DNA from: a virus
IMG/VR virus record: IMGVR_UViG_3300046009_004446
Coordinates: 1 to 38,486 of that record
Direction: 5' to 3' (one strand)
DNA: 38,486 nucleotides
Of the stretch, positions 6,353 to 8,926 are shown one piece after another. Positions within the stretch are counted from its first letter, which is position 1. The number at the start of each line of letters is the position of its first letter. Below the pieces are notes generated by a model, which was not told the DNA's origin, did not search any database, and saw only the letters and a program-made list of their open reading frames with translations. The position numbers were made by a program, and so were the translations under genes.

Positions 6353-6360
6353 CATTTAGT

Positions 6361-6401
6361 AGGTAGCGGGGGAGTCGAACCCCCGCTGCGACCCTCTACC
6401 T
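6361..6401 (-). ncRNA. mini tRNA-like element D (acceptor stem plus T-arm)
   Basis: On the minus strand the order is: acceptor strand AGGTAG (6396-6401), a 10-base linker carrying GGG (6386-6395), T-stem (6380-6385 with 6367-6372), T-loop TTCGACT (6373-6379), then CTACCT (6361-6366) pairing with the first strand. All six acceptor pairs and all six T-stem pairs are Watson-Crick. ACTAA follows where a tRNA would have N-CCA. No D-arm or anticodon arm is present. The stop codon TAG of the amidoligase gene (6400-6402) runs into the acceptor. Confidence 0.75.
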
Positions 6402-7272
6402 ATCGAGTGAACTCAAGAATGTCTTGATGTCTCTCACCCGTATTGATGTACTGCTGAAAGTGAACAGCCAAAGCGCTCACCTTAGCGACCTTGTCAGCAT
6501 CGCCGTCGTACATAGCCATGAGCAAAGGCTTCATGTCCGTCACGTACTTCTTGAACGATGTGCTAGGCTTGTTCATAGCCACATCTAACAGCGCGTACAT
6601 GAACTCATAACGGCGCATCATCTGCTTGACCGACTCGATGCGTGACGGCAAGCGGAACTCCAATGTGCAGCCCTTGACCAAAGCAACTTGGTACTTGCGA
6701 TGCATATTGTACGGGTCATGCTCAAGCATACGCATATTGTGATTGCAGTAGCCGTTCTTTAAGCGGTGACGGAACATTGCGTACATGAGCCCGCTGAACT
6801 TGCGAACTCTCTCGCGAATGTCATCGCCGCCCCATCCCTCGACGCCAATGGTGATGTGACCACCACAGCGCGAGTCCGACGGGCTGTATCTATCGTCGAT
6901 GATTCGCTCGGCTTTGTGCATCATGTCGTACACCTTGGTGCGCCATGTAGACGCGGGCAGCAAAGGTAAGATGTGCGTTACGGCCTCGTATCCGCATGAG
7001 CCGTCGCGCTCAAAGCCGCAAAACAATTCGTACTCACGAACAGCGCCGCGACTAAGCGATGTCTTCTCGACCTCAAAGCCAATGGTGAACTTAGACTCGA
7101 TGCCCTCAGCGTTGAAGATGAGAACGTCTTGCTGTTGGCGTTTCTTTAAACTCGCCACATCCACCTTACTTGCTTGCTTGTTCAAGAACAAGGGGTCGGG
7201 CTTGCTGTGGTAGCTTTGAACTTCTCCGCGGGCATACTCGCCCGTTACTTGATAAACGATTCCTTTTTTCAT
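6400..7272 (-). CDS. amidoligase-family enzyme (glutamine synthetase-like fold)
   Basis: A 290-residue protein resembling the phage and bacterial amidoligase family, which has a glutamine-synthetase/GCS-like fold and forms amide bonds between carboxyl and amino groups using ATP. The visible signatures are FTIGFEVEKTSL near residue 62 (the G-x-E-x-E type metal/ATP strand), FERDGSCGYEAVTHILPL near 86, RCGGHITIGV near 134 (the C/G-GHIH-like segment) and KGCTLEFRLPSRIES near 199, where the arginine is expected to contact substrate. Amidoligases are known to cluster with class II amidotransferases and AIG2/GGCT-like cyclotransferases, and exactly that fusion lies in the same operon (3084-4124). 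The substrate is unknown. The stop codon lies inside a tRNA-like element. Confidence 0.75.
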   Translation of the reverse strand: MKKGIVYQVTGEYARGEVQSYHSKPDPLFLNKQASKVDVASLKKRQQQDVLIFNAEGIESKFTIGFEVEKTSLSRGAVREYELFCGFERDGSCGYEAVTHILPLLPASTWRTKVYDMMHKAERIIDDRYSPSDSRCGGHITIGVEGWGGDDIRERVRKFSGLMYAMFRHRLKNGYCNHNMRMLEHDPYNMHRKYQVALVKGCTLEFRLPSRIESVKQMMRRYEFMYALLDVAMNKPSTSFKKYVTDMKPLLMAMYDGDADKVAKVSALAVHFQQYINTGERHQDILEFTR

Positions 7273-7297
7273 GGTGTTTTGTTTTATTGTTTATTAA

Positions 7298-7810
7298 TTA
7301 ATTTACTCCTACGGGGGTGACCAATCTAAGCATGAACTGACCCGCCATGCAATGGTCATTGCTGTAGTGAATTGATTTCCAAGCAGCCTTGATGTCATCT
7401 TCAGTGCTTAGCGCTACCAATGTCTCGTTGTCGGATAGGTCGCACATGAAGATTTCAAAGCCCGCTTTGTGCATCGATGTGATGTCGCTAAGTTTTTTAC
7501 CCTCGCTAAGCAAGTCCATGTAGTTGCGCTCATCGGATAGAACCTCATGATTGAACTGCTCGACTAACTTGCCGTCGATGTACTTTGTGCTGCTCACCAA
7601 TACTGAGGGAACGTAGTCGTACTCGTCGGGGTTTGGGCTGTAGTACACAGCATACAACTCATCGGTCACCTCTATGGTCAACGTTGATGGATTGATGCGA
7701 GACGTTTTGTTTCTTCGCTCAATTGTAAAGCCCATCTCAGCGAGTCGTCCTTGAGCGGGCATAGTAGTTACGATTTTGTTGTCGTCGATAAATGTGTTTA
7801 AGTAAGCCAT
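7298..7810 (-). CDS. hypothetical protein, 170 aa
   Basis: Not recognised. I place the start at the ATG complementary to 7808-7810 (MAYLNTFIDDNK). An in-frame reading upstream to 7900 exists but would translate the tRNA-like element and the palindrome, and it gives a low-complexity S/G/P stretch. The protein appears alpha/beta, with an acidic centre (SPNPDEYDYVPSVLVSS) and a C-terminal part with DNETLVALSTEDDIKAAW and HCMAGQFMLRL. It follows the amidoligase's upstream neighbour and precedes the amidoligase by 25 bases, so it may be a partner of that enzyme. Confidence 0.75.
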   Translation of the reverse strand: MAYLNTFIDDNKIVTTMPAQGRLAEMGFTIERRNKTSRINPSTLTIEVTDELYAVYYSPNPDEYDYVPSVLVSSTKYIDGKLVEQFNHEVLSDERNYMDLLSEGKKLSDITSMHKAGFEIFMCDLSDNETLVALSTEDDIKAAWKSIHYSNDHCMAGQFMLRLVTPVGVN

Positions 7811-7835
7811 TGTATTTGATTTTAAGTTGTTAGTT

Positions 7836-7876
7836 GCGGGCGGGGGACTCGAACCCCCGCTTGAACCATTCCCGCT
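7836..7876 (-). ncRNA. mini tRNA-like element C
   Basis: Minus-strand order: acceptor strand GCGGG (7871-7875, preceded by A at 7876), an 11-base linker with AATGGTTC (7860-7870), a six-pair T-stem (7854-7859 with 7841-7846), T-loop TTCGAGT (7847-7853), and CCCGC (7836-7840), the partner of the first strand. The acceptor sequence differs from the other three copies yet remains fully complementary. AACTAA follows. A copy of the 16-base palindrome lies 5 bases upstream in the transcript. Confidence 0.75.
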
Positions 7877-7881
7877 TGTCG

Positions 7882-7897
7882 GTGTCTTCAAAGACAC
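7882..7897. repeat. 16-base palindrome, copy 5
   Basis: GTGTCTTCAAAGACAC, exact, extended to 18 symmetrical bases by flanking G and C. It lies 3 bases beyond the stop of the 218-residue gene and beside tRNA-like element C. Confidence 0.9.
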
Positions 7898-7900
7898 CAA

Positions 7901-8557
7901 TTATTGTGCGCCATGCATCTCAAGGTACTGCTCGTTTTGGCATAGGTACATCAAAGCGCGCTTGATGTCGTTTAGGCTGTTAGTAGTGGTCATCTTTCCG
8001 TTCTCATCGATGCGCACACTCACGTTTGGATTGTGTCCGTCTTTGAACGTCATGGTGAAAGCAACTTGAGCGCGAGTCTCAACTACGGCCTCAGCGCCGT
8101 CACCCTCGCCGTCACCCTCGCCGTCTCCACCTTGCTCAGCGCCCGACTCCACAGCCTTGGCGAACTTAAGCAAGTTCTCAACTGAGCGCTTAGGATTCTC
8201 ACCCTCAGACTCCAATCGGTCGCACTCGGCGTTGAAGCGCTCGACGATTTCGTCCTCGACCTTGGCCACCTTGACGACCTTGTGGAAGAACGATTTTTGC
8301 CATCCGAATACTTTTGACGCGAACTCTTCCGCAGTCCATGAGATGCCCTCGGCATCGCATAGCTGTTGACCCTCGTCTGATTTGAACCACTCGTAAGCCT
8401 TGCTCACGTGTTTTGAAAGCGCCAAGGTCGTTACGAATTTCTTCTTTTTGGCGTTGTCAATTGTGCGCTGTAGCGCTTTGATTTCAGTCAAGTTCATCGC
8501 TGATTTCACTTGTGCGTTGTTCAAGAACGCTTGCTCGATAGATAATAAATTGCTCAT
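7901..8557 (-). CDS. hypothetical phage protein, 218 aa, with acidic glycine-rich linker
   Basis: Not assigned. Residues 1-130 are helical and lysine/alanine-rich, with TEIKALQRTIDNAKKKKFVTT and a W-rich segment (EWFKSDEGQQLCDAEGISW, VFGWQKSFFHK) that could be a DNA- or protein-binding helical domain. Residues about 142-154 are a perfect-looking low-complexity spacer of G, D and E. Residues 165-218 form a small strand-helix unit with FTMTFKDGHNPNVSVRIDENGKM. The division into two domains joined by a flexible acidic linker is clear, but I know no family function. It is flanked on both sides by tRNA-like elements. Confidence 0.75.
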   Translation of the reverse strand: MSNLLSIEQAFLNNAQVKSAMNLTEIKALQRTIDNAKKKKFVTTLALSKHVSKAYEWFKSDEGQQLCDAEGISWTAEEFASKVFGWQKSFFHKVVKVAKVEDEIVERFNAECDRLESEGENPKRSVENLLKFAKAVESGAEQGGDGEGDGEGDGAEAVVETRAQVAFTMTFKDGHNPNVSVRIDENGKMTTTNSLNDIKRALMYLCQNEQYLEMHGAQ

Positions 8558-8593
8558 GATGTTTTGTTTTTGGGGTTAAAGATTAAAGTTAGT

Positions 8594-8635
8594 AGCATGG
8601 GCGGGAGTCGAACCCGCCCTAGAACCATTCATGCT
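8594..8635 (-). ncRNA. mini tRNA-like element B
   Basis: Minus-strand order: AGCATG (8630-8635), linker with AATGGTTC (8619-8629), T-stem (8613-8618 with 8600-8605), T-loop TTCGACT (8606-8612) and CATGCT (8594-8599). Six perfect acceptor pairs and six perfect T-stem pairs are present, with one further G-C possible. ACTAA follows. The first base of the element is the last base of the TAA stop of the 75-residue gene. Confidence 0.8.
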
Positions 8636-8862
8636 TATCGGTTGAGGATATGAACCTCGATAGTACACGTGATGTAGTCATCAGTTGACTCCACCTCACA
8701 TCCCCATCCTTTGCAGCCTTTGAGGGCTTTGCTGTAGCTAGTCTTTACGTCCGCTCCACCGCCGTTGATGTAATCCAAGCACTTATCATATGCTCCCTTT
8801 ACGTTTCCGTACACACCGATGTTGCCGTCTTGGCTGCCTCTTACTACATAAATTGCTTTCAT
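8635..8862 (-). CDS. small hypothetical protein, 75 aa
   Basis: Not recognised. It reads MKAIYVVRGSQDGNIGVYGNVKGAYDKCLDY, then a glycine-rich segment (INGGGADVKTSYSKALKGC), and ends with a strand-like TIEVHILNR. The Y-VV-G-DGNIGVY pattern and the C-terminal strands suggest a small alpha/beta fold. Three cysteines are scattered rather than paired. It is the first protein-coding gene of the transcript starting near 9128 and is preceded by an untranslated leader of about 265 bases. tRNA-like elements lie just before and just after it, so it may be released as a separate message. Confidence 0.75.
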   Translation of the reverse strand: MKAIYVVRGSQDGNIGVYGNVKGAYDKCLDYINGGGADVKTSYSKALKGCKGWGCEVESTDDYITCTIEVHILNR

Positions 8863-8882
8863 TGTATTGATATTAATTGGTT

Positions 8883-8926
8883 AGCGCGCTTCGGGGAGTC
8901 GAACCCCGACTGAGACCATCAGCGCT
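8883..8926 (-). ncRNA. mini tRNA-like element A
   Basis: Minus-strand order: acceptor strand GCGCT (8921-8925), linker with GATGGTC (8910-8920), six-pair T-stem (8904-8909 with 8891-8896), T-loop TTCGACT (8897-8903) and AGCGC (8886-8890), the partner. GCTAA follows (8881-8885). The acceptor has five pairs. It forms the 3' end of the structured leader and precedes the start codon of the 75-residue gene by about 20 bases. Confidence 0.75.

Follow-up and report, generated by a model that had tools for sequence, protein, structure and literature searches.

Organization of the early operon

The window analysed here is a stretch of viral DNA of 38,486 nucleotides, and on its minus strand four tRNA-like elements, E1 to E4, lie among the genes of one early operon (Table 1). 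E1 is the operon's first element and is located upstream of a 75-aa ORF; E2 begins on the final base of this ORF's stop codon, and E4 overlaps the TAG stop of a 290-aa ORF. The 75-aa ORF has no match in Pfam, PHROG or PADLOC, and no family match was found for the 218-aa and 290-aa ORFs. Upstream of the operon we infer, from the DNA alone, a putative early promoter, and stretches resembling it are found at 5008-5048 and 2227-2267. Folding suggested that the linker of E1 might pair with the leader between promoter and E1; we dropped this candidate because the leader sequence is not conserved in a related locus (L005) whereas E1 is.

Table 1. Features of the operon, listed in the direction of the minus strand.
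Feature	Coordinates	Strand	Score	Description
Putative promoter	9116..9166	-		Bacteroidota-type early promoter (putative), TTG ... TAAATTTG; from sequence reading and repeat family D4
Leader	8927..9130	-		non-coding, between promoter and E1; strong folding, z -3.7
E1	8886..8925	-	55.5 bits, E 8e-12	acceptor GCGCT/AGCGC, linker GATGGTCTCAG, T-stem TCGGGG/CCCCGA, loop TTCGACT, tail GCTAAC
75-aa ORF	8635..8862	-		between E1 and E2
E2	8594..8635	-	55 bits	acceptor AGCATG/CATGCT, linker AATGGTTCTAG, T-stem GGCGGG/CCCGCC, loop TTCGACT, tail ACTAAC
218-aa ORF	7901..8557	-		between E2 and E3
Hairpin/palindrome	7881..7898	-		GGTGTCTTTGAAGACACC, just upstream of E3
E3	7836..7875	-	60.3 bits, E 4e-13	acceptor GCGGG/CCCGC, linker AATGGTTCAAG, T-stem CGGGGG/CCCCCG, loop TTCGAGT, tail AACTAAC
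170-aa ORF	7298..7810	-		after E3
290-aa ORF	6400..7272	-		3' end within E4
E4	6360..6402	-	43.9 bits	acceptor (TA)GGTAG/CTACC(TA), linker AGGGTCGCAG, T-stem CGGGGG/CCCCCG, loop TTCGACT
Hairpin/palindrome	6336..6353	-		GGTGTCTTTAAAGACACC, just downstream of E4

Four elements that resemble a tRNA elbow

Each element, its extent set by maximal pairing, is 40-43 nt long and consists of an acceptor-like stem of 5-7 bp, a linker of 10-11 nt, a T-stem of 6 bp and a TTCGANT loop; the anticodon arm and the D-stem are gone. A preliminary description of this DNA had placed four such elements on the minus strand, and a scan of both strands for a stem, a linker and a second stem with a TTCRANY loop confirmed them, returning exactly four matches, E1 to E4, where mononucleotide-shuffled windows gave a mean of 0.18. 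Within the window GGGTTCGANTCCC occurs four times on the minus strand and never on the plus strand, and its reversed form, the control, does not occur. The linker contains an invariant GG in AUGGU-like surroundings that resembles the G18G19 of the D-loop, which docks on the T-loop, and because the linker carries this D-loop-like GG we regard the element as a minimal tRNA elbow. The earlier view that the elements are an acceptor and a T-arm only was slightly incomplete, since the linker resembles a D-loop without its stem. At its 3' end the element has a tail of the form (A)C(U/G)A, not CCA. We note that the linker GG, the non-CCA tail, the abutting stop codons and the hammerheads at equivalent sites in relatives were absent from the preliminary description.

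The elements do not correspond to any RNA family against which they were compared. ARAGORN reports no tRNA in the window, and Rfam 15 gives no family match at gathering score in the window or in 12 element-bearing loci. A tRNA, with the D-arm and anticodon arm of a cloverleaf, was rejected in the absence of any ARAGORN or RF00005 call and with window linkers of only 10-11 nt; tmRNA was rejected as well, only T-arm fragments being matched (16.6 and 13.5 bits against a gathering score of 47). No full copy of the hammerhead (CUGANGA ... GAAA core with stems I-III) is present in the window, L005 or L006. E1 matches mascRNA-menRNA (RF01684) weakly, at 21.5 bits against a gathering score of 42.5. 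Relatives hold a graded series that runs from nearly full tRNA-like forms to mini forms, and no direct tRNA-gene ancestor has been shown. In the open-licence literature searched we found no prior report of these elements.

Covariation across phage copies

The same RNA is present in many other phage contigs. Among cultivated phages, Gordonia phage Trine has three copies in tandem (NC_047991, 31979-32249). Across 21 elements from the window and its relatives, covariation is 0.841, compared with 0.193 for shuffled and 0.11-0.23 for slid alignments, so that the covarying copies in related phages that had been proposed as a check do exist. Six of six acceptor pairs show double-sided changes in this set, which upholds the earlier observation that the acceptors differ in sequence yet stay complementary. 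Covariation is 0.905 against 0.176 in 23 distinct elements that were collected with a search pattern lacking the acceptor, but these elements were aligned to the model. When instances were identified by the linker and T-arm alone, 64% of 115 had an acceptor with 5 bp or more in place, compared with 2-8% in far-shifted and swapped controls. The acceptor and T-stem together span 11-13 bp (mode 12), and their sequences vary between copies; with stem lengths mixed in this way, a pairing matrix in fixed register was blurred. The bases around the GG are A (94%), U (83%) and U (89%); the GG itself was required in that linker scan, yet it is invariant in the 21 elements, which were first found without requiring it. 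The first unpaired 3' base is mostly A, then C, and CCA is encoded in only 3 of 133 elements and not encoded in the other 130.

Broader searches were less discriminating. Scans without the T-loop motif returned mostly chance matches, with near-equal numbers on the two strands (66/58), BLAST of an element against phages returned mostly true tRNAs, and the matches in L091 are tRNAs. Three matches passed in 395 Bacteroidota genomes, of which one (L220) reads as a convincing element and the other two look like tRNA material. The phage database holds no near match to the window, and among annotated phages relatives of the 290-aa ORF are confined to one record, which is without elements. In L005 the genes around E2 and E3 are swapped relative to the window: E2 is identical despite both flanking genes differing, and the 170-aa ORF is missing at the equivalent place.

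Placement between genes and exchange with ribozymes

The elements belong to one early operon and one strand, and are found at or just past stop codons, ~15-50 nt ahead of the following ATG. With ORFs of at least 50 aa considered, 70% of element starts fall between -25 and +25 nt of an ORF stop, compared with 12% at random. Gene and element alternate seven times in one contig. Genes alternate with elements in L082, where an ArdC anti-restriction gene lies beside elements; one relative identified through the L082 gene family has five elements of the same kind and no hammerheads. Among 50 whole phage records all 21 matches lie inside one early operon, and 13 records have matches; most relatives are without the mini element, and it is therefore optional.

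We collected 52 related loci via the 290-aa ORF and find on their operon strand 88 hammerheads and 34 tRNA-like elements, with none of either on the opposite strand. Every locus has a hammerhead, a tRNA-like element or both, and hammerheads are present in 45 of the 52. The gap directly 3' of the 290-aa gene contains a hammerhead in 37 loci, a tRNA-like element in six (the window included) and neither in nine, but never both, while the gap before this gene contains a hammerhead in three and a tRNA-like element in six. Rfam confirms Hammerhead_3 and a twister-P3 in relatives, the twister occupying a different operon gap. Hammerheads and tRNA-like elements lie at a similar distance from the next ATG, and of 76 hammerheads in relatives 71 have a hairpin ahead of them. 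In L160, where the adjacent gene is not related to the 290-aa gene, hairpin-hammerhead-ATG and tRNA-like-ACTAA-ATG arrangements occur within one stretch.

Discussion

We propose, with a probability of roughly three in four, that the four elements punctuate a polycistronic early mRNA of the phage. The covariation, the stop-codon placement, the confinement to one operon and the replacement by ribozymes that we observe, together with the structure itself, support the earlier suggestion of t-element-like cutting by RNase P; the cleavage itself and the identity of the enzymes are inferred. The acceptor and T-arm would stack coaxially into ~12 bp, with the GG of a stemless, D-loop-like AUGGU linker docked on the TTCGA loop. 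Gauging the distance from elbow to cut, host RNase P would cleave where the acceptor begins on its 5' side, which is at the upstream stop codon or shortly past it, and host RNase Z may cut on the 3' side, past the first unpaired base, since almost no element carries the CCA that would inhibit it. In this way one long early transcript would be split into messages of a single gene each, and their ends might be guarded by the neighbouring hairpin (for GGTGTCTTTGAAGACACC we suggest that it shields the 3' end left on the upstream mRNA by the cut) and, unless removed, by the minihelix. Hammerhead or twister ribozymes would take this role in the corresponding operon gaps of close relatives.

RNase P favours an RCCA tail, and the near absence of CCA from the elements is a point against cutting by this enzyme. 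In favour of it, RNase P is described as requiring a T-loop-like structure, the D-loop being dispensable (PMC4919913). In several elements a canonical RNase P cut would land inside the stop codon (UA|A), and the message would then lack a complete stop, barring a displaced cut or repair of the end. The predicted folds also count against cleavage: for isolated E4 an alternative outer helix has the minimum free energy (-22.2 kcal/mol, the minihelix reaching -18.7). When 80 nt of context are folded, the minimum free energy structures of E2-E4 lack the acceptor helix, the T-arm being present in all four elements.

It is possible, though unlikely, that the elements are never cleaved and instead stabilize the message or tune re-initiation between genes; they are GC-rich, often lie beside another hairpin, and sit between a stop codon and the next ATG. 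However, a plain hairpin would be enough for stability, which requires neither the elbow (GG and TTCGA) nor a fixed 11-13 bp, and the self-cleaving ribozymes exchanged into the same gaps point to cutting. Those ribozymes cannot be tRNA decoys, and this, together with the fact that decoys would require neither abutting stops nor strict alternation with genes, leaves us giving very little credence to the idea that the elements titrate a host enzyme that binds tRNA, or a defence nuclease that cleaves it (the case raised in the preliminary description), through recognition of the elbow or acceptor. Multiple copies in an early operon, good elbow mimicry and the ArdC gene of L082 would suit such a sponge, but the alternation with genes makes it fit less well, and anticodon nucleases are excluded as its target because the element has no anticodon.

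The product might be the excised minihelix itself, which would work in trans as a 40-nt RNA with a CCA tail. CCA is not encoded in the elements and plant t-elements gain it after excision (PMC11658184), but the variable stems and a placement that tracks gene ends make this no more credible than a decoy. We find it least plausible of all that the elements lack an RNA function and are remnants of tRNA genes, or DNA recombination joints between swappable early genes. Although the intermediate and full tRNA-like forms in relatives and the gene swaps around E2 and E3 would be consistent with this, the compensatory double-sided changes, the restriction to a single strand (34 to 0) and the kept spacing to stop and start codons all argue for selection on RNA.

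Beyond the window, we think it probable that mRNA punctuation by tRNA-elbow mimics defines a widespread and as yet unnamed phage RNA class, one that directs mRNA cutting by host enzymes (the cleavage again being inferred) and is interchangeable gap by gap with hammerhead and twister ribozymes. If so, early gene expression of such phages depends on host RNase P, a class of RNA absent from Rfam acquires a role, and RNase P and RNase Z gain natural candidate substrates of very small size.

Small tRNA-like structures at transcript ends that are cut by tRNA enzymes include mascRNA-menRNA. That element (RF01684) differs in belonging to an animal lncRNA and in having larger arms, and the score of E1 is far under the family cut-off. 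The t-elements of plant mitochondria, which are described as homologous to tRNA genes and as keeping a typical tRNA-like secondary structure, lie at mRNA ends and are cut by RNase P and RNase Z, their CCA being unencoded (PMC11658184, PMC8003010). The phage elements resemble them, and the tRNA punctuation model, in being tRNA-like structures at mRNA boundaries without an encoded CCA; unlike t-elements, they are without the anticodon arm and D-stem, occur several per operon and in phages, and have not yet been shown to be cleaved. If they are cleaved, the mitochondrial punctuation model extends to viruses of bacteria. The M3 and C4 antisense RNAs are bacteriophage substrates of RNase P (PMC11143913) and provide a precedent for non-tRNA phage RNAs cut by the host enzyme, although there they are single RNAs and are not described as repeated marks between genes.

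A role in processing phage transcripts has been proposed for clustered hammerheads that flank prophage genes (Perreault et al. 2011, PMC3088659), and what hammerheads do in phages is not settled (PMC6155905). The elements described here share with these clusters their place in the operon and the proposed cutting of long transcripts into short mRNAs, and the presence of tRNA mimics, inferred to be cut by the host, in the gaps that ribozymes occupy makes transcript processing the likely shared function. Hammerheads cut themselves, whereas the tRNA-like element lacks a catalytic core and would depend on enzymes of the host; if the two are interchangeable gap by gap, one viral operon design would be run by two unrelated cutting chemistries.

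Results

Read again in the sequence and by a scan of both strands, the four miniature tRNA-like elements of the preliminary description (E1 to E4) are real and stand where it had placed them. They are the only such structures on either strand of the 38.5 kb window, shuffled sequence giving 0.18, and searching the window returned no tRNA and no Rfam match for them at the usual thresholds. The window, whose source is a virus record, encodes a Sak-type annealing protein, an exonuclease, GroEL, a gamma-glutamylcyclotransferase and a terminase, and promoter-like TTG..TAnnTTTG stretches in its sequence suggest a Bacteroidota host. 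The long stretch between the putative early promoter and E1 is a non-coding leader with strong predicted structure (fold z -3.7), and E1 could define where a small RNA ends on its 3' side; the leader at the same place in a related locus, L005, is unrelated in sequence and also folds strongly.

Through the 290-aa protein encoded between E3 and E4 we gathered 52 related loci, a simple scan of which gave 26 candidates (25 on the sense strand), including a few long-linker, tRNA or chance matches. Covariation among copies in relatives, which the preliminary description had proposed to look for, is strong (0.841 versus 0.193, and 0.905 versus 0.176 in a second set). In an alignment of 21 elements the linker GG and the TTCGA.T loop are invariant; the linker consensus of 127 elements is A (94%), U (83%), GG, U (89%), GG having been a search requirement. 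We infer that the linker acts as a D-loop without a stem, its GG docking on the T-loop, and therefore that acceptor and T-arm form a minihelix in which the elbow is complete; the contact is beyond the reach of covariation since both partners are invariant. Acceptor and T-stem together have 11-13 bp, the mode of 12 bp equalling that of tRNA (7+5). The 3' tail mostly has A-C first and G or U next, and CCA is encoded in 3 of 133 elements. Folded in isolation, 98 of 135 elements have the acceptor helix in the minimum free energy structure; thermodynamic folding favours another outer helix for E4, and likewise for E2-E4 in context.

Variants were also seen. One subfamily, mostly with a single copy per contig (L086, L102, L111, L121, L125, L132, L140, L163 and others), has an 8-nt linker, ATGGTGTA, a 5 bp acceptor and a 7 bp T-stem; in many members the acceptor/linker includes a TGA. 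The contig L060 carries several variants, distributed over 8.5 kb, that have a longer D-like linker (e.g. agcagtggcgtaag) and the tail ctngctggcatc in common.

A pattern keyed on the linker and T-arm only found at least 115 distinct instances in IMG/VR; among the matches listed, 64% of 115 distinct instances have an acceptor in place that is 5 bp or longer (a few percent in controls), and many contigs have 3-7 copies. Rfam gave no match in the other element-bearing loci searched. A tail-specific pattern occurs in 26 viral contigs versus 2 contigs of a bacterial and archaeal genome collection totalling 257 billion bases, and 3 of 395 Bacteroidota genomes have any match, one convincing on reading. 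On these counts the element belongs essentially to phages. Among cultivated phages, Gordonia phage Trine carries it in three tandem copies.

In 70% of cases an element starts no more than 25 nt from the point where a sizeable ORF has its stop codon (random positions, 12%), the last stop-codon base often being the first element base, and an ATG-started ORF follows within 50 nt in 67% (random, 30%). Genes and elements alternate in the loci L005, L006 and L082, and 3.1 kb of L082 contains seven elements. All 21 matches in 50 whole relatives, which are the same as the strong non-window matches of the element search, lie within the one early operon. In three other loci (L030, L039 and L043), a tRNA-like element comes immediately after a strong terminator-like hairpin with a T-run, and its acceptor has the sequence CATCGGG also found in the stem of that hairpin, a possible switch or read-through arrangement.

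When the gap before the 290-aa gene was read across relatives, hammerhead cores were found where a minihelix would stand. A strict search (stems I, II and III, U-H cleavage site, CUGANGA, GAAA) found 88 hammerheads in the 52 loci, window included, and there are 34 tRNA-like elements, all of both kinds on the operon strand and none opposite. Hammerheads alone occur in 33 loci, both kinds in 12 and tRNA-like elements alone in seven, which include the window and its two nearest relatives; no locus lacks both. Right after the 290-aa gene, the position of E4, 37 loci have a hammerhead, six a tRNA-like element, nine neither by the strict criteria, and none both. Rfam supports the hammerheads at 35-50 bits (E 1e-7 to 1e-3), many below the 48.5-bit gathering score, and assigns a type-P3 twister ribozyme (61.8 bits) to the gap before the 290-aa gene in L042. 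A hairpin, often GTGTCTTNNAAGACAC, stands just upstream of 71 of 76 distinct hammerheads (5% of random positions), and of 14 of 25 mini tRNA-like elements. The next ATG is mostly 15-54 nt from hammerheads and 19-51 nt from minihelices. In L160, whose neighbouring gene has no similarity to the 290-aa protein, one gap holds a hairpin and hammerhead and another a tRNA-like element with an ACTAA tail. On the 290-aa protein tree (labelled rows only), the distribution of loci with a tRNA-like element after this gene implies about four changes of state, two or more of which are required by well supported branches, so the exchange probably happened more than once.

The near-perfect palindrome GGTGTCTTNNAAGACACC, present in six copies in the window early region, stands before most hammerheads in relatives; since two of the window copies are within ORFs and another is upstream of the early promoter, it may also be an operator.

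Coordinates of the elements and associated features
Feature	Source	Positions	Strand
E1	window	8886-8925	-
E2	window	8594-8635	-
E3	window	7836-7875	-
E4	window	6360-6402	-
Structured leader	window	8927-9130	-
tRNA-Leu-like RNA	window	10491-10623	+
Palindrome GGTGTCTTNNAAGACACC	window early region	1165-1182, 3111-3128, 5099-5116, 6336-6353, 7881-7898, 9289-9306	
tRNA-Leu-like form	L029	11432-11534	
Hairpin and tRNA-like element	L030	6590-6700	
Hairpin and tRNA-like element	L039	9940-10056	
Hairpin and tRNA-like element	L043	11460-11565	
Twister ribozyme	L042	5895-5972	+
Longer-linker variants	L060	705-9237	+
ArdC-type gene	L082	849-1772	+

Discussion

A hammerhead between two genes has, to our knowledge, only one activity, which is cutting the RNA there. 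That the tRNA-like elements share the gaps, strand and spacing of the hammerheads argues that they also mark cuts, in that host enzymes recognising tRNA elbows would cleave the early mRNA at them; cleavage itself is inferred, not shown. RNase Z is blocked by an encoded CCA, and fits as the cutting enzyme because CCA is all but missing here. For RNase P, a weak point is its preference for RCCA, and some of its expected cuts would split a stop codon. RNase P also fits, because it requires a T-loop-like structure and gauges the acceptor plus T-arm (PMC4919913), and cuts other phage and intergenic RNAs (PMC11143913). The alternative folding predicted for E4, and for E2-E4 in context, is a weak point for the minihelix reading, and the cutting reading was made without a known host or transcripts.

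It is likely, though unproven, that the elements descended from tRNA genes, because relatives carry intermediate tRNA-like forms with extra arms. We also note in the window a tRNA-Leu-like RNA, for which ARAGORN made no call, with an acceptor (TCACGGAG/CTCCGTGG), a T-arm sequence and a D-arm-like one, and about 60 extra, abnormal nucleotides in place of the anticodon and variable arms; a similar form occurs in the locus L029.

Lastly, an ArdC-type anti-restriction gene in L082 has tRNA-like elements on either side, and ardA in a published prophage has hammerheads on either side (PMC3088659); from these two cases, anti-defence genes recur beside putative cut sites.
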